DNA of 64,000 nt from Mariniflexile maritimum (GTDB lineage: Bacteria > Bacteroidota > Bacteroidia > Flavobacteriales > Flavobacteriaceae), in assembly GCF_009746565.1 (NCBI RefSeq), contig NZ_WRPN01000011.1:1-64000 (forward strand). The letters run 5' to 3'. Positions within the stretch are counted from its first letter, which is position 1. The number at the start of each line of letters is the position of its first letter. Made by a program: the position numbers and the translations under genes. Below are positions 24,502 to 32,927 of this stretch, in pieces. The notes under the pieces are model-generated. The model was given only the letters and a program-made list of their open reading frames with translations, had not been told where the DNA came from and ran no database searches.

Positions 24502-25083
24502 TTACTTATTAAGTAGGTTAAATTTTGGTGATTCGCGAACCAGCTCTGTTAATTTACCAATACATAAAGATTTCTTTTTTCGGGCATAAGCGTATGTTAC
24601 ACCTAAACTTTCGGCCACTTCTTCCATCGATTTTATTTTAAAGGTTGCGGCCAATAATTCTTTACAAGCGGTTCCTAGTTTATTGAACATTTCTGTAAAT
24701 AAGGCGTGTTTTTCGCCGTACAAATCGGTTTCAAAAGCTAGTTCATGAGCGTCTTCTCCTTTATATAAAATGTCTTCCTTAATTGTTACCTCTTTATTCG
24801 ACGTTTTTTTTAGTTCGTTCAACCATTTGCGCTTGCACAGTAAAAAGAAATACGCATCGAATGGGCAGGTTAATTCCAGCTTCTTTTCGCTTGCTTGATT
24901 ATATATGGTTATTAAGGTGTCTTGAATAATGTCCTGCGCTTGGTCGCTATCGCCACTGTTCTGTTTGATGTAATTGATAACCTTGGGCGCGAATTTATCA
25001 TAAATGGCCTCTATAATAAAGGCATTGTTTTGCACCAATCCATCGATATATTTTTGGTCGTCGTGTAATTTTTTTTCGCTCAT
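24502..25083 (-). CDS. ECF-like sigma-70 family RNA polymerase sigma factor
   Basis: A 193-residue two-domain sigma factor. Region 2 (about residues 25-95) contains SDQAQDIIQDTLITIYNQA, the DxxQDxF-like core-binding block. Region 4 is the C-terminal helix-turn-helix MEEVAESLGVTYAYARKKK (about 153-171). No extra domains. It is transcribed away from the secreted-protein and CHAT genes and followed at once by a membrane anti-sigma candidate. Three copies of a spaced promoter motif that is not the housekeeping one lie in front of the rightward genes, making it the most likely user of that motif (inference). Confidence 0.88.
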   Translation of the reverse strand: MSEKKLHDDQKYIDGLVQNNAFIIEAIYDKFAPKVINYIKQNSGDSDQAQDIIQDTLITIYNQASEKKLELTCPFDAYFFLLCKRKWLNELKKTSNKEVTIKEDILYKGEDAHELAFETDLYGEKHALFTEMFNKLGTACKELLAATFKIKSMEEVAESLGVTYAYARKKKSLCIGKLTELVRESPKFNLLNK

Positions 25084-25128
25084 TAACCCTTGTATTTACT
25101 GCTAATTTAAAAAAAGTTTAAAATAAAT

Positions 25129-25164
25129 GGGTAACAAAATATAAATGGTTTTGATATAAGGGTG
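25129..25164 (+). promoter_or_regulatory. Putative ECF-sigma promoter, copy A
   Basis: GGGTAACAAAA (25129-25139), 11 bp, then TTGATATAAGG. It is followed by about 50 bp of leader before the secreted-protein gene. The same blocks with the same 11-bp spacing recur at 25673 and 26877. Confidence 0.65.
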
Positions 25165-25217
25165 TAACAACAAAAATTACAAATCAAATTTTAATTAATC
25201 CATAAAAACTAGAAATC

Positions 25218-25655
25218 ATGAAAAAATCAATTTTAATTATCGCAACCGTAGCTTTATCAATGTTAAATGTAAATGCCGCCAATGAAAACAAAACACTTAA
25301 CGCTTCAACTGAAATTGGAACTGTTTCAAAAGATAACATCGCCCAAATTTTTGAGTGGCAAGTTGAAACCACAAAAGGGGTTTACTCCGGTACTTCACTA
25401 TCACTTGAAAGTGCCAAGGAAATGATGAAACTATCAAGCTCTGGCGAAGTTGTAACAGGAACGCAAATTACAAGTTACTTCGTATTAAAAAGCGAAATGA
25501 ACACCAACAGAAACTATTTCTGGGAAGTTGAAACTGAAACTGGATCGGCAAAAGGTTATGCCTCTACTGAAGATTACGCCAATAAAATGATTGCCTTAGT
25601 GGCTTCTGGTGACGCCATTGTATCAAAAATCATCATCAGCCAACCGCAACAATAA
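25218..25655 (+). CDS. Secreted protein with an internal duplication
   Basis: A 145-residue protein with signal peptide MKKSILIIATVALSMLNVNA. The mature part consists of two homologous units of about 45 residues. The first begins FEWQVETTKGVYSGTS and the second YFWEVETETGSAKGYAS; both continue with a helix of the type SAKEMMKLSSSGE or DYANKMIALVASGD. No catalytic residues are apparent, so a small binding or sensing protein is plausible. It is the first rightward gene beside the sigma factor, behind promoter copy A. Confidence 0.6.
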   Translation: MKKSILIIATVALSMLNVNAANENKTLNASTEIGTVSKDNIAQIFEWQVETTKGVYSGTSLSLESAKEMMKLSSSGEVVTGTQITSYFVLKSEMNTNRNYFWEVETETGSAKGYASTEDYANKMIALVASGDAIVSKIIISQPQQ

Positions 25656-25667
25656 AAATAAGTACCA

Positions 25668-25697
25668 AAACAGGGTAACAAAAAAGTTGCCCTGTTT
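25668..25697 (+). terminator. Hairpin between secreted protein and lipoprotein genes
   Basis: Arms AAACAGGG and CCCTGTTT enclose an A-rich loop. There is only a short T run, so termination is probably partial. Confidence 0.5.
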
Positions 25698-25704
25698 ATA
25701 TACC
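25673..25704 (+). promoter_or_regulatory. Putative ECF-sigma promoter, copy B, overlapping a terminator hairpin
   Basis: GGGTAACAAAA (25673-25683), 11 bp, then TTTATATACC. The -35-like block lies inside an inverted repeat (AAACAGGGTAAC..GTTGCCCTGTTT, 25668-25697) that can also end the upstream transcript. The lipoprotein gene starts 30 bp downstream. Confidence 0.6.
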
Positions 25705-25734
25705 ATCAAATAACAATTAAAAACCCAAATTATC

Positions 25735-26775
25735 ATGAAAACAACAAATCAATTTCAAGAACACTCAAACAATTTTAAAAACATGAGCAACCATTTAAAG
25801 CACATTTTAGGAACCCTTTTAATAACGGCCTTACTGCTTACAGGCTGTAGCAAATCGGAAGGCATCGATGATGATTGCGATGACTTGTGCAGTGTAGCAA
25901 CCGCCGAGGCGTTTGATGGCATAAAAGAAAAGGCCCTTGAAGAAATGACCCAAAAATTTCAATTTAAGGCCGAAGATGGCGCGGTAACCCTAACCTCAAA
26001 AAAAGGTGTAAAAATTACCATCAACGGAAACTGTTTAACCAAAAACGGCAATGCCGTAACAGGTAACGTCGATTTGGAATATGTTGAGATATTCAACAAA
26101 GGCAACATGTTAACTACCAACAAACCTACCATGGGCCTTATGCCAAACGGCGATAAAGCCTTATTGCTAACAGGTGGCGAGTTCTTTTTGGAAGCCTCTC
26201 AAAATGGTGTTGCCTTGGCCACCAATTGTGAACTTCAACTCATTATCCCAGCTAATTTAACCGGCGGCACCGATACTAACATGATCTTATGGAATGGCCT
26301 CATTGATGATAATGGCGACCTAGTTTGGGAAGAAGCAAAACGCGATGGCGCCAACGGTAAAGGAGGTGTGTTTGCTGAAGGTTCCAACTATTATGCCTTT
26401 ATAGGTAACTTTGGATGGAGCAACGTAGATAGATTTTATAACGACCCCAGACCAAAAACAACCATTTTAGCTGCTGTTCCCGAAGGGAATGACAACAAAA
26501 ACTCGGCCGTTTATTTGTCGTATGACGGTGAAACAACCGGTTTGGCCCAATTAGATACTTACGATCCTGCAACCGGATTGTTTAGCGAGCATTACGGACA
26601 AATCCCTATTGGTTTAGAATGTCATGCCATTTTTGTATCGGAAGTTAATGGCAACTGGAAATACGCCATAAAGGCCGTAACCATTGTTGCGAACGGCATT
26701 ATCACATTTACAACCAGCGACATGGCCATTGCTACCGAAGCGCAACTTACAGCCATCATTAACGGTTTACCTTAA
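25735..26775 (+). CDS. Lipoprotein of unknown function
   Basis: A 346-residue exported lipoprotein. The lipobox LLTGC is at residues 34-38 if translation starts at 25735, or 18-22 from the ATG at 25783 (MSNHLKHILGTL), which gives a more usual signal length. The body has the features of a beta-rich envelope protein (LTSKKGVKITINGNCLTKNGNAVTG.., GEFFLEASQNGVALATNCELQLIIP). An acidic Cys-containing start follows the lipobox (DDDCDDLCSV). No enzyme motif is evident. It stands behind the second copy of the sigma-type promoter and is followed by a terminator, so it is a separate member of the presumed regulon. Confidence 0.65.
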   Translation: MKTTNQFQEHSNNFKNMSNHLKHILGTLLITALLLTGCSKSEGIDDDCDDLCSVATAEAFDGIKEKALEEMTQKFQFKAEDGAVTLTSKKGVKITINGNCLTKNGNAVTGNVDLEYVEIFNKGNMLTTNKPTMGLMPNGDKALLLTGGEFFLEASQNGVALATNCELQLIIPANLTGGTDTNMILWNGLIDDNGDLVWEEAKRDGANGKGGVFAEGSNYYAFIGNFGWSNVDRFYNDPRPKTTILAAVPEGNDNKNSAVYLSYDGETTGLAQLDTYDPATGLFSEHYGQIPIGLECHAIFVSEVNGNWKYAIKAVTIVANGIITFTTSDMAIATEAQLTAIINGLP

Positions 26776-26836
26776 ATAATCTACACAATTAATTACCTAC
26801 TTAGTATTGGTTTCCCCGTACTTAACCTACTTACTA

Positions 26837-26867
26837 AAAACCAGAGGCTTTTGTTTCTGGTTTTTTT
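26837..26867 (+). terminator. Terminator after the lipoprotein gene
   Basis: Arms AAAACCAGA and TCTGGTTTT with a short loop are followed by seven T. Confidence 0.85.
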
Positions 26868-26876
26868 CATTTTTAA

Positions 26877-26908
26877 GGGTAACAAAAAGCACTTCCGATT
26901 GATATAAT
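26877..26908 (+). promoter_or_regulatory. Putative ECF-sigma promoter, copy C
   Basis: GGGTAACAAAA (26877-26887), 11 bp, then TTGATATAAT. It would start a leader of roughly 145 nt for the PKD/barrel protein and the CHAT operon. Confidence 0.65.
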
Positions 26909-27061
26909 GGTATGAAGAAAAATGCCGTTATAATCATTCTAATCATGTTTGTCCTTTTTGTTATATGGGCAAACCTCGTTATGATTGCAGCCCATTTATA
27001 TAGATATTAGGATAAGTGAACGCTTTTTGTATATTTATGAACAACTAAACTGTAATGTATC

Positions 27062-29014
27062 ATGAAGAAATTCATCGTCCTTTTTTTATTCGTGGCAAGT
27101 GCACTAGCTGCTTCTGCCCAAAAACTGGTTAACGATACCATAACAAGAACGGCAACCATAAAAACAAACGCTACCGGAAATATGGTGCTTTTCACGCCAG
27201 AAACACCCACTTTAAACCAAATAGCGGGAGCACCAAAAGCGTTTTATACCCATTTCTGGGAATTTGGCGATGGCCATTATAGTACCGAACCTACACCAAA
27301 ACACATTTATAAAAAACCCGGTGAATACGAAGTACGCTTATGGGCAACCAATAATTACGACACTGGAAAACCGCCAACTACCAGACCAAAAAAAATTGCC
27401 ATTAACGAAGTAACTTCAACAGCTGATGATATAGCGTTAATGGATGAGGATTTTACATTAAAACGCAACCGAGAACCCGTTCCAGATGAAGAAATGGTGC
27501 TGGTGGTAAGCTATAAAAACCCAAAAGACTATGTTACCAACGGAAAACTGTATCTGTTTTACAACGAACACCAATACAAGGCAGCTAATTTTGAACTGTT
27601 GGAAACCAGAACTTATCACAATGAAAAAAACAGCAATACGGAAGGCTTTGCTTTTACAAGAACTATTGATGATGACGGCATGTATTTAGCATCTTCAAAC
27701 ACCAATTACTTTGAAACCAGGACCTTTTTGCAAGATTCCACCGAAAAAACCAACTTGCCCCTAACCATCGAAAAATCGAAAGCATTTTATAAAAACTGGA
27801 CCCTTTTAGAATTCGATAATTTACAACCAAAAGAAGAACGCAACATCTTTTTCAGCTTAAAAACAACGCCCGAAATGGTAAAAGATACCAGTGCCATCAT
27901 TTCCGTTCGCGGCATTTATGTGCCCGATGCCAATTACGACAATCACAAGGTAAAGGATATGGAAATGGAAATAGTTACTTCGCACGATCCCAATAAAATG
28001 TCGTCAAACGGCACGTTTATGAACTACCGCTTCGTCCGTTTTAAAACTTTGAAATATAAAATCAAGTTTCAAAATAATGGCGAAGGGCCCGCGCGCACCA
28101 TTCGTTTGGAGACCGATATTCCTGATATGTTGGATAAATCGACCATCAAAATTTTAGACATGTACCCAAAATGCGATATTTGCCCAAAACAAGAGGTGAT
28201 TTATAGTTGTTTGGATACCACGTTTACAAAAACACAAGCCATTTTTACCTTTAAGAATATTTATCTTCCCGGAAGCGAGCAAAAAAACGTTAAGGAATAT
28301 GATTCCACCAAAGGGTTTGTTAAGTACAGTATTAAGTTTGCCAAAGATTTTCATAAACAAAAAACAAAAAGTAGAACAGCCATCATTTTTGATAAAAACG
28401 ACCCCATCATTACCAATTATTCAACAACGCGCTTTTTACCGGGTATCTCGATAGGTGCAAAAGTGGGCGTTAATTCTTTTTCAAACTTGAACAATTCCGA
28501 AAGTTATTTCTTTGGCGCAACGCTTTCACCCTATAAATCGTACCGTTGGTATTGGCAGGTGGAATTAATGAATAATTTCCATAATTACGATTCTAGCACC
28601 AATGTGGTTGATGAAATTATTCAAGGTGCACAAGGCGAACGCTTTTTGCAACGCACCACAACTCTTTTTTCGTTTGAAAATATTGATTGGGACGTGCCCG
28701 TTTTACTGCGCTACAACATCAACAATTATATAGGTTTGGGTGCGGGTTTGCAAAACACCATTTCTATAAGTGAAAAACAAAATGAACGCATCTTGGTCGA
28801 GCGTTTTGAAGGCTTAAAACCCGATGCGCCCATTATAAGCGCTACCAAATCGCAAGCTTCCACAACAAATGCGTTTACCAATTTAAGAACGGGTTTGTTG
28901 TTTGAGACTACCGCTGGTTTTGCGCGCATTGGCCCCAGTTTGGGCGCACGCTACGTTATGGATTTTGAAAACGATTTTAATTATTGCCAATTTTACGCCA
29001 TTTGGAAGTTTTGA
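27062..29014 (+). CDS. Exported PKD-domain protein with a C-terminal barrel-like region
   Basis: A 650-residue protein with a clear signal peptide (..ALAASAQ, cleavage near residue 20). A PKD domain lies at about residues 60-115 (FWEFGDGHYSTEPTPKHIY and EYEVRLWA). The middle contains a bacterial conserved-repeat-like fold with SHDPNKMSSNG and LKYKIKFQNNGEGPARTI (about 305-355), which in Bacteroidota usually occurs in large surface proteins. The last 190 residues (from ..GISIGAKVGVNSFS) consist of amphipathic strands and end in FYAIWKF, as in outer-membrane barrels. It probably displays the PKD part at the outer membrane. It precedes the CHAT protease by 65 bp and may share its transcript. Confidence 0.65.
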   Translation: MKKFIVLFLFVASALAASAQKLVNDTITRTATIKTNATGNMVLFTPETPTLNQIAGAPKAFYTHFWEFGDGHYSTEPTPKHIYKKPGEYEVRLWATNNYDTGKPPTTRPKKIAINEVTSTADDIALMDEDFTLKRNREPVPDEEMVLVVSYKNPKDYVTNGKLYLFYNEHQYKAANFELLETRTYHNEKNSNTEGFAFTRTIDDDGMYLASSNTNYFETRTFLQDSTEKTNLPLTIEKSKAFYKNWTLLEFDNLQPKEERNIFFSLKTTPEMVKDTSAIISVRGIYVPDANYDNHKVKDMEMEIVTSHDPNKMSSNGTFMNYRFVRFKTLKYKIKFQNNGEGPARTIRLETDIPDMLDKSTIKILDMYPKCDICPKQEVIYSCLDTTFTKTQAIFTFKNIYLPGSEQKNVKEYDSTKGFVKYSIKFAKDFHKQKTKSRTAIIFDKNDPIITNYSTTRFLPGISIGAKVGVNSFSNLNNSESYFFGATLSPYKSYRWYWQVELMNNFHNYDSSTNVVDEIIQGAQGERFLQRTTTLFSFENIDWDVPVLLRYNINNYIGLGAGLQNTISISEKQNERILVERFEGLKPDAPIISATKSQASTTNAFTNLRTGLLFETTAGFARIGPSLGARYVMDFENDFNYCQFYAIWKF

Positions 29015-29079: not shown

Positions 29080-31647
29080 ATGGCAAGAAGCATTATTTTT
29101 TTAATCTACTTCATCTGCGGAATGGCCTTTTCCCAAAATCTGGAAGAAGCCATTTATACTGCTGCCGAAACGTTTATAAGCAAGAACAATGAAGCATCTT
29201 TCAATCTATTAAATGCCCAGGAAGCCAACTTTAAATCGCTTGTAAAAACAAAAGACGAACAATTGGCACTTGTTTTTTTACAATGCCATAAAGCCTATTA
29301 TTTAGAGACCCGTTCAAAATTAAAAGAAGCGATTGCAACTTACGAAGAAGCCTTAAAACGCTTTAACGACAACGCCCTTTCAAGACTTTCCGATTTCGAT
29401 ATTATTGAAAGCTGCTTTAAACCCCTTGGCAACCTATACACCAAAACGGGCGATTATACCAACGCCGTAAGCACCATAAACCAATATCTATATTTAGCCG
29501 AAAAAAACAAAAACACCAAACATCAAATAAGCGGTGCCATAAATTTGGCGAAGCTGTACCAAACCATAGGCAAGCACGAAACGGTTTTAAAAATTGTTAA
29601 CGATGCCTTGAAGCTTTCAAACGCAAGTACAAATCAAAAAGCACTTCTCCAAGGCATCAAAAACTCTAGCTTAATTGCTTTAAACAACTATGAAGATGCC
29701 TCGCTTTTAAATAATGCAGCTTCCCAATTTCAACGCTTTAAGAACGATTATTTTGTAGCGTTTCAAAAAGGCAATTATAAAAAAGCCCTTGTTTCATTTG
29801 AAAAAGCAAAAGAACATCTTGATAGCGCCGAGTTTTCCTCAAGAGATTTAGCCAAATTTTATGTTGAAGAAGCACAACTTCAATTCCTTCTTAAAAACAA
29901 AAACGGCGCTTTAAAAAGTCTGCAAAAAGCGATTAAATTATTAATTCCAAATTTTAAAAGTGAGAGGTTGCCTTCAAAGAAAGATTTATATGCCGAAAAC
30001 ACATTTGTAGATATTTTCGACCTACACGCTGCCATTGAAACAGATGCTGCACAAGCATTAAAAAGTTACGATTTAAGCTTTTATGTTTCAGGATTGTTGC
30101 AAGATAACTGGACCTCGCAAGAGGCAAAGATTTTAAACGAAACCAATAACCGCATACGGAGCGAAAACTGTATAGAGCTACTGTTAACCACCTACAAGCA
30201 AACCAAAAACAAAACCCTTTTGTTTGAAGCGTTTCAATATGCTGAAACCCACAAAGCCTCGGTTTTAAAGTCGGTTCACCTGAAAAAAAAGCAATTGCAA
30301 AAACATCCCACCGATACTTTATTGATACAGGAATTGCGCCTGATTAAAGAACAGGAACGGTACACCAATTTGCTGATTAAAGAGCAACTTGGCACAAATA
30401 AAGCTTCAAAAGTAAATGCCTTGAGCGCACAATTAAGCCACATAAGCATTCAATTAAAAGCATTAAAAACAGCGATTGAAAAAAAATACCCTCAGAACAA
30501 AACCCTTTATAGCTTAAAAGCCATTCAGCAAAAACTAGCAAAAAACCAAGCCGTTTTAGTAGCCTATTTTTACGGAAGGAACGCCATTTATCAGTTTGTT
30601 ATTTCTGAAACCAATATTAGCGTAGAGACCATACCTTTAACCAACGAAACGAAAGAAAGCATTATTGATTTCATCCATTTATTTGATAATGCTTCCATTA
30701 TAAACAACGCTATTAACCAATATACCACTAGGGCGTTTGGTGTTTACAACTTGCTAAAATTCAACCAAACGGCTTCTTACAGAAACGTGGTCATCATTCC
30801 CGATGGCCTATTGAATTTCGTTCCTTTTGAAGCGCTCCTTTCCTCTAAAACCGCTTCAACAGTTTTCGCCAACATGCCCTTTGTTGTTAAAAACCAAACA
30901 GTTGCCTATAATTCCAGCGTGCAATTTTTTTTAACCGAAAGTACCATTGTTAACAACAACAAACTTCTCGGATTTTTCCCTGTGTTTGAACATAGCAACC
31001 AAAAACTAACCTACTCCATTGATGAAGCTCAGGCTATTAAAAAGGAAATGCCTTCAACCATCTTTTTAAATGCCCAAGCCTCGAAAGGAAACTTTATAAA
31101 ACATGCCCCTAATTTTGGCATTTTGCATGTCTCAACCCATGCCAGCAGCGGCAATTTTGTAACGCCTGCCAACATATCGTTTTTCGATGATACCATGTAT
31201 TTAAACGAATTGTACAGCTTAGATCTAAACGCCCATTTGGTGGTTTTAAGTGCTTGCGAAACAGGCGTTGGCAAACTTTACAAAGGCGAGGGTGCCATGA
31301 GTATAGCCCGCGGATTTCAGTATGCCGGGGCTGAAAATTTGCTGTTTACTTTGTGGCAAATAAACGATTTATCAACCTCGCAGATTATGGAGTCGTTTTA
31401 TGAAAACTATGCAGATTTACAATCGGCATATTTGGCAAACAACCGTTCAAAAATCGATTATTTAAAAAACGAAACAATTGGCAACGCCAAAAAATCGCCC
31501 TATTATTGGAGTGCTTTTGTTTATTATGGCCAACTTGATGCGGCAAAAACAAATGGTTTCAATTTTTATATAATTTTTGGCAGCTTACTAGTTTTGATTG
31601 TGTTACTTTTAGTCTTGAAAAATAGAAACCATGGCAGAGACTCTTGA
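29080..31647 (+). CDS. Exported TPR-CHAT protease-like protein with C-terminal membrane anchor
   Basis: An 855-residue caspase-family (CHAT) protein. It starts with a signal peptide (MARSIIFLIYFICGMAFSQ) and continues with tetratricopeptide repeats (about residues 20-370) and a coiled region (395-490). The CHAT domain spans about 530-825: the catalytic His lies in HVSTHASSG (about 683) and the catalytic Cys in VVLSACETGVG (about 725). One helix (about 828-846) and a basic tail NRNHGRDS end the protein, so the protease should face the periplasm, anchored in the inner membrane. I chose the ATG at 29080 over a TTG two codons upstream. The last 17 bases overlap the retropepsin-like gene. Substrates unknown. 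Confidence 0.85.
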   Translation: MARSIIFLIYFICGMAFSQNLEEAIYTAAETFISKNNEASFNLLNAQEANFKSLVKTKDEQLALVFLQCHKAYYLETRSKLKEAIATYEEALKRFNDNALSRLSDFDIIESCFKPLGNLYTKTGDYTNAVSTINQYLYLAEKNKNTKHQISGAINLAKLYQTIGKHETVLKIVNDALKLSNASTNQKALLQGIKNSSLIALNNYEDASLLNNAASQFQRFKNDYFVAFQKGNYKKALVSFEKAKEHLDSAEFSSRDLAKFYVEEAQLQFLLKNKNGALKSLQKAIKLLIPNFKSERLPSKKDLYAENTFVDIFDLHAAIETDAAQALKSYDLSFYVSGLLQDNWTSQEAKILNETNNRIRSENCIELLLTTYKQTKNKTLLFEAFQYAETHKASVLKSVHLKKKQLQKHPTDTLLIQELRLIKEQERYTNLLIKEQLGTNKASKVNALSAQLSHISIQLKALKTAIEKKYPQNKTLYSLKAIQQKLAKNQAVLVAYFYGRNAIYQFVISETNISVETIPLTNETKESIIDFIHLFDNASIINNAINQYTTRAFGVYNLLKFNQTASYRNVVIIPDGLLNFVPFEALLSSKTASTVFANMPFVVKNQTVAYNSSVQFFLTESTIVNNNKLLGFFPVFEHSNQKLTYSIDEAQAIKKEMPSTIFLNAQASKGNFIKHAPNFGILHVSTHASSGNFVTPANISFFDDTMYLNELYSLDLNAHLVVLSACETGVGKLYKGEGAMSIARGFQYAGAENLLFTLWQINDLSTSQIMESFYENYADLQSAYLANNRSKIDYLKNETIGNAKKSPYYWSAFVYYGQLDAAKTNGFNFYIIFGSLLVLIVLLLVLKNRNHGRDS

Positions 31648-32074
31648 AACATTTCTTCTTAACAAAGGCTATGTTGGCATTAAACTAAAGCTAACAAAAA
31701 CAAACCATTTTGAGATTAAAGCCACATTAAATGGTGTAAAAGGACGTTTTATTTTAGATACCGGTGCCTCAAGCTCGTGCGTGGGTTTTGAAGCGGTTGA
31801 CACCTTTAATCTTCAAGTAAAAGATTCTAAAGTTTTGGCCGCCGGTGCTGGGGCCATTAACATGGAAACCAAAATGTCAAAAAAAAACAGCGTAAAAATT
31901 GGCAAATGGCAATCGGATAAAATTATTTTGGTACTATTTAATTTAACACATGTTAATACGGCACTTATAGACCATAAATCAAAACCCGTTGATGGTATTA
32001 TTGGAGCCGATATATTGAAGAAATCGCATGCTATTATCGATTATGAGAAAAAACAGCTTTACTTGAAACCGTAA
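31631..32074 (+). CDS. Retropepsin-like aspartic protease
   Basis: A 147-residue single-domain protein with the catalytic motif FILDTGASSSCVG (Asp near residue 43) and a later hydrophobic flap and helix segment (KPVDGIIGADILKKSHAIIDY). Active enzymes of this fold are dimers with one Asp per subunit. There is no signal peptide, so it should act in the cytoplasm or at the inner face of the membrane. Its start codon lies inside the end of the CHAT gene, implying translational coupling, and the response regulator follows 49 bp later. A substrate within the same pathway is plausible but unproven. Confidence 0.85.
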   Translation: MAETLETFLLNKGYVGIKLKLTKTNHFEIKATLNGVKGRFILDTGASSSCVGFEAVDTFNLQVKDSKVLAAGAGAINMETKMSKKNSVKIGKWQSDKIILVLFNLTHVNTALIDHKSKPVDGIIGADILKKSHAIIDYEKKQLYLKP

Positions 32075-32123: not shown

Positions 32124-32753
32124 ATGAACACCTCCATTGTTATTGCGGACGACCATCCGTTGATGCTTCGTGGTTTGACAGACTTTTTAACCTCTAAGGG
32201 CTTCAATATTGTAGGAAGCGCTCCCGATGGCAATTCGGCATATCATCTTATTGTGAAGTTAAAACCTAAAATTGCCATTTTAGATATTAGAATGCCCCAT
32301 AAAACCGGCCTTGAAATTGCCGAAGCTTGCCAAAAAAACAACCTGCCCACGAAAATTATCCTTATAACGTTCGATAAGGAAGAAGCCCTATACGACCAAG
32401 CAAAAGCGTTTAACGTTTACGGGTATATTTTAAAGGAATTTGCTATTGAAGAAATTGAAATTTGCATAAAGAACGTTTTAAATAACAAACCTTATTTTAG
32501 CGATGAAATAGCTTCCTACCTAAACCACAGTCCCATTAATAAATCGGAAAAGTTAGAGCTACTTACCAAAACCGAGCTGCGAATTATCAAATTAGTTTCC
32601 GAAGGCAAATCAAGCCATGACATTGCCGATGAACTTTTTATATCCGTTCGCACCGTTGATAAACACCGCAGCAATATCGTAGCTAAACTAGGATTGGACA
32701 ATAAACCCACCTCACTTTCCATTTGGGCCAGTGTAAACAAAGAGCATCTTTAA
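32124..32753 (+). CDS. NarL/LuxR-type response regulator
   Basis: A 209-residue two-domain regulator. The receiver domain has the acidic pair DD (residues 9-10), phospho-acceptor Asp54 (AILDIRMP) and Lys104 (YILKE). A LuxR-type helix-turn-helix occupies about residues 145-200 (LTKTELRIIKLVSEGKSSHDIADEL, SVRTVDKHRSNI). No histidine kinase gene is in the window, so its kinase is encoded elsewhere. The stop codon overlaps the first of two identical dyads that may be its own operators. Co-location with two proteases suggests it controls or reports on that proteolytic system. Confidence 0.9.
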   Translation: MNTSIVIADDHPLMLRGLTDFLTSKGFNIVGSAPDGNSAYHLIVKLKPKIAILDIRMPHKTGLEIAEACQKNNLPTKIILITFDKEEALYDQAKAFNVYGYILKEFAIEEIEICIKNVLNNKPYFSDEIASYLNHSPINKSEKLELLTKTELRIIKLVSEGKSSHDIADELFISVRTVDKHRSNIVAKLGLDNKPTSLSIWASVNKEHL

Positions 32754-32779
32754 AAAATACGTAGAAGTGCGTATTTTTT
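32752..32779. promoter_or_regulatory. Dyad operator or hairpin, copy 1
   Basis: Perfect 10-bp arms AAAAAATACG and CGTATTTTTT around TAGAAGTG, starting inside the stop codon of the response regulator. An identical dyad lies 148 bp downstream. Each is 45 bp upstream (start to start) of a TATCTTTAC element. It could be both the terminator of the regulator gene and a binding site. Confidence 0.7.
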
Positions 32780-32899: not shown

Positions 32900-32927
32900 A
32901 AAAAATACGTAGAAGTGCGTATTTTTT
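32900..32927. promoter_or_regulatory. Dyad operator, copy 2
   Basis: Identical over all 28 bases to the dyad at 32752-32779, in the same orientation, and again 45 bp upstream of TATCTTTAC. Confidence 0.7.

Follow-up and report, generated by a model that had tools for sequence, protein, structure and literature searches.

A predicted ECF sigma factor regulon and its promoter motif in Mariniflexile maritimum

Few regulons of extracytoplasmic function (ECF) sigma factors with a defined promoter have, to our knowledge, been described in marine flavobacteria, and the roles of CHAT proteases in bacteria are known mainly from CRISPR and cell death. This work deals with a predicted ECF sigma factor, the promoter motif attributed to it and its putative target genes, including that of a CHAT protease, in the genome of Mariniflexile maritimum (NCBI RefSeq assembly GCF_009746565.1). 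The window, i.e. the whole stretch of DNA analysed, comprises 64,000 nucleotides (contig NZ_WRPN01000011.1, positions 1 to 64,000 of the forward strand). Elements of the locus have counterparts in two described systems. In E. coli the rseA promoter P3 lies inside rpoE, 228 nt before the rseA start (PMC8595263), and in type III-E CRISPR systems the TPR-CHAT protein Csx29 cleaves Csx30, the inhibitor of an ECF factor (PMC10028731).

The locus is best described as a putative ECF sigma regulon with three local transcription units and an internal promoter for the anti-sigma gene, a model to which we assign a probability of about 0.85. The sigma factor would be held at the membrane by an anti-sigma factor which spans it once and carries its TPR domain in the periplasm. 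Once freed, the sigma factor would recognise GGGTAACAA-N13-TTKATATA and transcribe the gene of a secreted protein, that of a lipoprotein, and an operon for an exported PKD protein and two proteases, one a periplasmic TPR-CHAT protein and the other of the aspartyl type. A weaker fourth site within the sigma gene would add transcription of the anti-sigma gene without extra sigma factor, as a built-in brake. The whole account is drawn from sequence evidence. This shows the sites, their confinement to the locus in this genome, the link to the sigma factor, the envelope character of most target products and the constraint on the DNA of the internal site; contact of the sigma factor with the motif, initiation at the internal site, binding of the anti-sigma factor to the sigma factor and the membrane topology are inferred. 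The elements concerned are the following (aa, amino acids).

24502..25083, minus strand: ECF-type sigma factor, 193 aa, matching Sigma70_r2 and TIGR02937
23762..24496, minus strand: anti-sigma candidate, 244 aa, with N-terminal helical domain, one transmembrane segment (about residues 92-110) and C-terminal TPR
24762..24791, minus strand: internal promoter-like site directed toward the anti-sigma gene, reading AGGTAACAA-N13-TTTATATA in the sense of the sigma gene
25129..25158, plus strand: putative sigma-dependent promoter 1 (secreted protein), predicted start A at 25166
25673..25702, plus strand: putative sigma-dependent promoter 2 (lipoprotein)
26877..26906, plus strand: putative sigma-dependent promoter 3 (PKD/CHAT/aspartyl protease operon)

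The promoter motif and its sigma factor

A preliminary description of this DNA had reported three identically spaced copies of GGGTAACAAAA followed by 11 bp and TTKATATA, and these stand exactly where it placed them, all on the plus strand (25129-25158, 25673-25702 and 26877-26906); the span which it gave, 25129-26908, begins with the first motif and ends 2 bp past the last. Varying the gap from 9 to 13 yielded no additional copy in the window, and 100 dinucleotide shuffles of the window put the chance expectation at 0. The genome-wide scan which had been proposed beforehand covered 3.66 Mb (3,659,224 bases in 38 contigs) and detected exact copies nowhere but at these three sites. The sole copy with one mismatch is the site at 24762-24791 within the sigma gene. 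Seven matches with two mismatches are found elsewhere in the genome, and a control pattern, the motif read backwards, gave six at up to two mismatches; among six of the seven which were inspected, five lie inside open reading frames (ORFs) of at least 100 aa and one overlaps an ORF start.

To assess conservation, 93 relatives were found and the best 80 of them, named flavobacterial loci with an orthologous sigma gene from Mariniflexile, Confluentibacter, Flavivirga, Algibacter, Tamlana, Lacinutrix, Winogradskyella, Bizionia, Olleya, Aquimarina and other genera, were brought into one orientation and scanned; the locus of M. maritimum brings the set to 81. GGGTAAC-N17-KATATA occurs 129 times on the target strand of the 80 loci and 0 times on the opposite strand. 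The remaining gaps between 8 and 27 account for seven matches in total (N16 one, N18 one, N22 one, N25 three, and N15 one on the opposite strand), and the reversed pattern with up to one mismatch gives none in the 80 loci. Allowing one mismatch, 160 target-strand sites of the 81 loci were assigned to a following ORF of at least 90 aa; none lies within a same-strand ORF of more than 120 aa, and the median distance to the next ATG is 56 bp (142 within 150 bp, one at 1,393 bp). A chance repeat, which the preliminary description had already considered unlikely, is thus rejected by the shuffles, the scan of the own genome and the one-strand, fixed-gap conservation in the 80 loci.

In the logo of 161 instances, selected at up to one mismatch, GGGTAACAA and TTKATATAA flank the spacer and motif position 38 is an A. 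When the instances are split by class, sites 1 and 2 show a conserved spacer, of which hardly anything is seen in the 27 sites distant from the sigma gene which are described below; the logo of the latter keeps both halves with a weaker position 38. Transcription is likely to start at motif positions 36-38, which predicts starts at about 25166, 25710 and 26912-26914.

Nine related genomes were scanned in full. In the eight carrying an orthologue of at least 65% identity (G001-G005, G024, G026 and G052) exact sites are confined to the sigma locus, except for one in G024 before a lipoprotein gene. A distal one-mismatch match in G002 precedes the counterpart of that lipoprotein, and G004 and G005 have one distal one-mismatch match each. 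In the scan of G031, which has only a 34% identical homologue, the exact motif was not found.

A wider survey included 397 family genomes, whose kinship makes the counts non-independent. A sigma orthologue (E 1.5e-69 or better, the next match being 3.7e-33) is present in 55 of them. The exact motif occurs in 46 of these 55 and in 2 of the 342 others (Fisher P 1.6e-48, which overstates independence owing to shared ancestry), and the reversed control in one genome, G183. Both exceptions, G079 (88% complete) and G117 (82%), have their site in front of a gene whose family is already known as a target, so that the sigma gene may be missing from these incomplete assemblies. Eight of the nine genomes with an orthologue and no exact site have a variant one: a single mismatch in G110, G124, G265, G324 and G416, and a spacer 1 bp shorter at one site in G296 and at three sites each in G183 and G363; in G251 no convincing variant was found. 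Position, strand, spacing and co-occurrence thus tie the motif to the adjacent sigma factor, of which it is, on these comparisons, most likely the promoter. The motif behaves as a promoter class separate from the TAnnTTTG type, and the ECF promoter reading is well supported, both as first proposed. A literature search for the motif letters returned no Bacteroidota promoter paper among the matches listed; one paper on a Bacteroidota pathogen has them in a PCR primer only.

The sigma factor matches Pfam Sigma70_r2 (PF04542) with 28.4 bits (cut-off 24) in region 2, and the ECF family model TIGR02937, which spans residues 24-179, with 50.2 bits (cut-off 42.9); its 193 aa agree with the small size of the family. 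Region 4 has no Pfam match; TIGR02937 reaches residue 179 there and TYAYARKKKSLC is invariant in nine of nine sequences. The anti-sigma candidate is encoded beside the sigma gene in 73 of 74 loci (the set with at least 8 kb on the target side, used for all synteny counts below), and its orthologues have a single transmembrane window in 71 of 78 cases and none in seven, so that the membrane anchor and adjacency of class I are both found. Its AlphaFold model has four N-terminal helices and a C-terminal half which matches TPR structures.

Several observations on the two proteins weigh against the model. The anti-sigma match, to NCBIfam NF052375 (E 6.8e-8), has 32.8 bits and is below the cut-off of 100. 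No solved anti-sigma structure appears among the sequence or Foldseek matches listed, the latter being headed by TPR-type proteins with none at E 0.001. The weak match fits the report that a class I anti-sigma domain is found near only 6% of Bacteroidetes ECF factors (PMC7406223). Upstream of the sigma gene, within 400 bp on its own strand, the best match to the motif has five to seven mismatches in 78 loci; positive autoregulation of the sigma gene was rejected on this ground, and by this sequence measure a feature usual for ECF factors is missing here. Neither does TAnnTTTG, as a housekeeping promoter of the sigma gene, occupy a single conserved place. In 50 of 72 first sites the beginning of promoter 1 is 45-47 bp away from the start codon of the sigma gene (here 25083-25129), so that polymerase may be unable to occupy both divergent promoters at a time.

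The internal site of the sigma gene

The fourth site, located within the sigma gene, is oriented toward the anti-sigma gene, and its predicted start is at about 24754, 258 nt before the anti-sigma ATG. The element has at most two mismatches to the full motif in 33 of the 81 sigma genes, the own gene included. Across all 81, GGTAACA is present in 81, AGGTAACAAT in 80 and TAT[AC]TA at the right place in 77. The codons are nearly fixed: V99 is GTA in 78 of 78 genes which encode valine there, T100 is ACA in 78 of 78 and E98 is GAG in 71 of 71, whereas in the 19 other scorable columns of the first 108 codons (fourfold degeneracy or more) the share of the top codon is 0.21-0.72. In a set of 42 non-redundant sigma genes (less than 85% nucleotide identity) synonymous constraint among the 177 columns is strongest at 107, 100 and 99 (z 3.8-4.5), and the best four-codon window is 98-101 (value 0.54, permutation P 0.0019). 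In this set AGGTAACAAT is kept in 42 of 42 and TAT[AC]TA in 41, the exception being TATCTG in L096; at codon 107, 40 genes have TCT and the other two TAT. Six neighbouring genes with 1,595 columns served as a control, and no column in them is fixed to the degree of these codons. Pure protein-coding constraint is rejected by the synonymous tests together with this control.

Other data speak against a promoter at this place. A start-proximal window of the secreted-protein gene is equally constrained (0.56 versus 0.54). Among eight divergent orthologues (52-66% identity; L186, apparently on the same contig as L103, was left out) GGTAACA is present in all eight and the -10 half, as ATCTA or ATATA, in six; the two which have lost it, G183 and G363, are the most diverged. 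In most species the internal site deviates from the promoter instances at two positions, with C instead of A (94% of the instances) at motif position 28 and A instead of G (88%) at the first; the instances had themselves been selected at up to one mismatch. With these two deviant positions the internal site may be weak or may not be a promoter. Taken together, the sequence data indicate that it is probably a weak sigma-dependent promoter for the anti-sigma gene. With this site present and none before the sigma gene, feedback by the sigma factor would act on its inhibitor alone, and this combination, as predicted, is the most unusual point of the locus. The three sites of the preliminary description therefore stand, and three are too few for the regulon, given this DNA-constrained fourth one aimed at the anti-sigma gene.

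Codon freezing demonstrates constraint at the level of DNA or RNA and does not tell which function is served. The element could also be another nucleic-acid signal, such as an mRNA element or a decoy, or could drive a region-4 fragment starting at Met132, a residue invariant in nine aligned sequences; we consider this unlikely, as the frozen positions match both motif halves at the exact spacing and on the strand leading into the anti-sigma gene, and the layout equals that of rseA P3 in E. coli (PMC8595263). For the motif as a whole, its bipartite and conserved structure would also suit the binding site of a transcription factor at housekeeping promoters. Such a site is very hard to reconcile with an element which is asymmetric, points in one orientation toward genes, has a rigid 17-bp gap and an AT-rich -10 half, is followed in the pooled logo by a conserved A 8 bp downstream and co-occurs with the sigma orthologue. 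Scarcely more credible is recognition by another ECF factor of the genome, the adjacent one being incidental. The genome does offer 23 matches to the sigma70-ECF model, housekeeping-type sigma factors included. Against this stand the near absence of the motif from genomes without the orthologue and the cases of G204 and G315, which have only distant paralogues and, with 28 and 36 sigma matches, no exact motif. Moreover, it is the divergent orthologues of G183 and G363 which accompany the shortened spacing. Recognition by the adjacent ECF factor, with a weak internal promoter, is the reading followed below.

Target genes and the CHAT protease

The features downstream of the three putative promoters are as follows.

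25218..25655, plus strand: secreted protein of 145 aa with signal peptide (by eye) and no family; relative in 52 of 74 loci
25668..25697, plus strand: 12-bp hairpin over promoter 2, left arm holding the -35 element, right arm the spacer; -18 kcal/mol, z -6.2
25735..26775, plus strand: lipoprotein, 346 aa, acidic stretch following the lipobox cysteine; relative in 73 of 74 loci
26836..26865, plus strand: terminator-like hairpin with T run, between the lipoprotein gene and promoter 3
26912..27010, plus strand: possible leaderless 32-aa hydrophobic membrane microprotein, starting 5 bp after promoter 3
27062..29014, plus strand: 650-aa exported protein with PKD, DUF7619 and DUF7849; relative in 72 of 74 loci
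29080..31647, plus strand: 855-aa TPR-CHAT protease (CHAT E 4.7e-41), signal peptide by eye, C-terminal transmembrane segment; relative in 72 of 74 loci
31631..32074, plus strand: retropepsin-like aspartyl protease, 147 aa, overlapping the CHAT gene (Asp_protease_2 E 4.1e-11); relative in 66 of 74 loci
32124..32753, plus strand: NarL/LuxR-type response regulator, operon membership uncertain; local relative in 55 of 74 loci

The neighbours named beforehand, i.e. an ECF-type sigma factor with a membrane anti-sigma candidate, a secreted protein, a lipoprotein, a PKD protein and a TPR-CHAT protein, are all present as described, and the locus is richer than that description. The 55 local relatives of the response regulator are what is left of 57 matches, two being weak and 10 kb away on the other side. 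In the lipoprotein Cys38 is invariant in 26 of 26 aligned sequences; its predicted fold (mean predicted local distance difference test score, pLDDT, 82.8) gave no convincing Foldseek match, the query-normalised TM-score being at most 0.30 in the 50 matches listed, and the best E-values belong to cyclodextrin glucanotransferases (CGTases) at a root-mean-square deviation of about 20 Å. L041 (G002) and L045 (G005) carry tandem lipoprotein genes (195-196 and 324-325 aa), each after an exact, near-identical site. ORFs similar to the microprotein, with a WANL/WANF motif and the same 5-bp gap, are found in L054, L068 and L080.

Site 2 had been described as a promoter copy, which holds and is too narrow, since the site is also one arm of a conserved hairpin. 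A stem of at least 7 bp is found at 43 of 89 (48%) non-first local sites versus 11% with shuffled spacers, these being related and not independent sequences, and paired stem changes occur among relatives, e.g. from ACAGGG/CCCTGT to ATAGGG/CCCTAT. A possible role of this hairpin, which has a poor T run, is to terminate the upstream gene. The terminator-like hairpin before promoter 3 is consistent with the third operon needing a promoter of its own. After the response-regulator gene there are two identical 28-bp hairpin-forming palindromes (32752-32779 and 32900-32927, plus strand), 148 bp apart, a pair of which 0 are expected by chance; they are perhaps terminators or regulator sites.

The regulon had been called local. 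This holds for M. maritimum and its three exact sites; a strictly local regulon is rejected for the family, where 70 of the 97 exact sites surveyed have the sigma gene at a distance of at most 10 kb and the other 27 are distal. All 27 distal sites are outside same-strand ORFs of more than 120 aa and stand 22-211 bp before an ORF of at least 60 aa. The first ORF has an export-type N-terminus (by eye) in 25 cases, the other two encoding a 70-aa peptide and a prolipoprotein diacylglyceryl transferase, and the product of the distal target in L136 resembles the 145-aa secreted protein (by eye). Pfam was run on eight proteins, seven of them distal targets, with matches to LGT, curlin repeats, a YkuD L,D-transpeptidase, an OmpA-type protein and a DUF4082 lipoprotein; a CarboxypepD_reg-like match was below the cut-off and two of the eight had no match. 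The predicted output of the regulon is thus mainly the cell envelope. In L143 and L144, from related genomes, the distal site precedes a curlin-repeat gene (Pfam on L143), a possible amyloid under the sigma factor. In L146 (G372) it precedes the 70-aa peptide, which has a GG-type leader-like sequence and is followed by a 381-aa ORF; the arrangement resembles a modified-peptide locus.

The CHAT domain has H687 and C726, presumably the catalytic residues of the family, invariant in all 37 aligned of the 72 sequences, i.e. the His and Cys of a TPR-CHAT protease. With its signal peptide and the transmembrane window at residue 828 the protease is predicted to be periplasmic and to share this compartment with the TPR half of the anti-sigma candidate. 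Loci of sigma paralogues (about 30% identity) carry a CHAT relative in 16 of 20 cases within the fetched 16-17 kb, in one of which the sigma query gave no match. In five genomes 24 of 29 CHAT genes are within 10 kb of a sigma-70-family gene, mostly ECF-type, versus 3.7 expected. This rate is biased and approximate: the four genomes other than the own one were chosen for their sigma paralogues, and the sigma list, made of the matches listed plus one from another search, includes non-ECF factors. In the own genome all three CHAT genes are within this distance of a sigma match; the other two, G000:C33:58325 and G000:C36:34673, adjoin ECF sigma paralogues, the C36 match having an internal stop in one scan and an open frame in another.

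By analogy, this proximity suggests a Craspase-like, envelope-facing route to sigma release. Cleavage of the anti-sigma factor by the CHAT protease is a hypothesis and the most speculative part of this work. A widespread class of flavobacterial envelope-sensing systems might be built on it, in which a caspase-like TPR-CHAT protease of the periplasm frees the ECF sigma factor by cutting its TPR anti-sigma factor, as a CRISPR-free, outward-facing counterpart of Craspase. The sigma factor would transcribe the protease as positive feedback, surface proteins, and the anti-sigma gene from its DNA-frozen internal promoter as negative feedback, with no motif before the sigma gene; we put this forward as a doubtful generalisation. 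The two proteases are encoded behind promoter 3 and hence as targets, and a reading slightly more probable than not makes both of them outputs which act on envelope proteins or invaders and do not regulate the anti-sigma factor. The frequent company of CHAT genes and this sigma family, the compartment predicted for the protease and the precedent of Csx29 argue the other way.

Comparison with known systems

SigP/PorXY of Porphyromonas gingivalis is likewise a Bacteroidota ECF factor over envelope secretion genes, and differs in controlling the type IX secretion system (T9SS). We know of no CHAT protease or TPR anti-sigma factor in that system. Flavobacterium psychrophilum, of the same bacterial family, has promoter classes SM1-SM6, of which SM6 is an ECF-type class with a sigma/anti-sigma pair; unlike here, it has a CGT -10 box and controls T9SS genes, and a GGTAACA class is not described among the six in the excerpted text, logos aside (PMC9723704).

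The type III-E CRISPR CASP system (Csx29, Csx30 and CASP-sigma) shares with this locus a TPR-CHAT protein linked to an ECF sigma factor and its inhibitor (here the anti-sigma candidate), and three sigma motifs within the locus (PMC10028731). It differs in that the signal peptide and C-terminal transmembrane segment predict a periplasmic protease here. Sequence kinship to Csx29 was not detected, a CHAT-family profile run against PDB chains finding only TPR proteins at E 0.001, and no Cas7-11-like or Csx30-like gene was recognised among the ORFs read at 18-36 kb, no search aimed at cas genes having been made. Apart from the type III-E work, no pairing of an ECF factor with a CHAT protein was found among the literature matches listed. 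The present data add a link of CHAT proteases to sigma-factor genes in several genomes, together with an exact, searchable promoter sequence and a co-occurrence test across 397 genomes.

RpoE/RseA of E. coli has the layout predicted for this locus. An ECF sigma gene is followed directly by that of a membrane anti-sigma factor, a candidate here, and contains a sigma-dependent promoter (PMC8595263), a putative one here, with 228 nt to the anti-sigma start in E. coli and a predicted 258 nt in this locus. The differences are the lack of a motif before the sigma gene, another promoter sequence, a TPR sensor and the adjacent CHAT and aspartyl proteases. Within this comparison the locus offers a putative example of a sigma gene whose codons also spell out a regulatory promoter.

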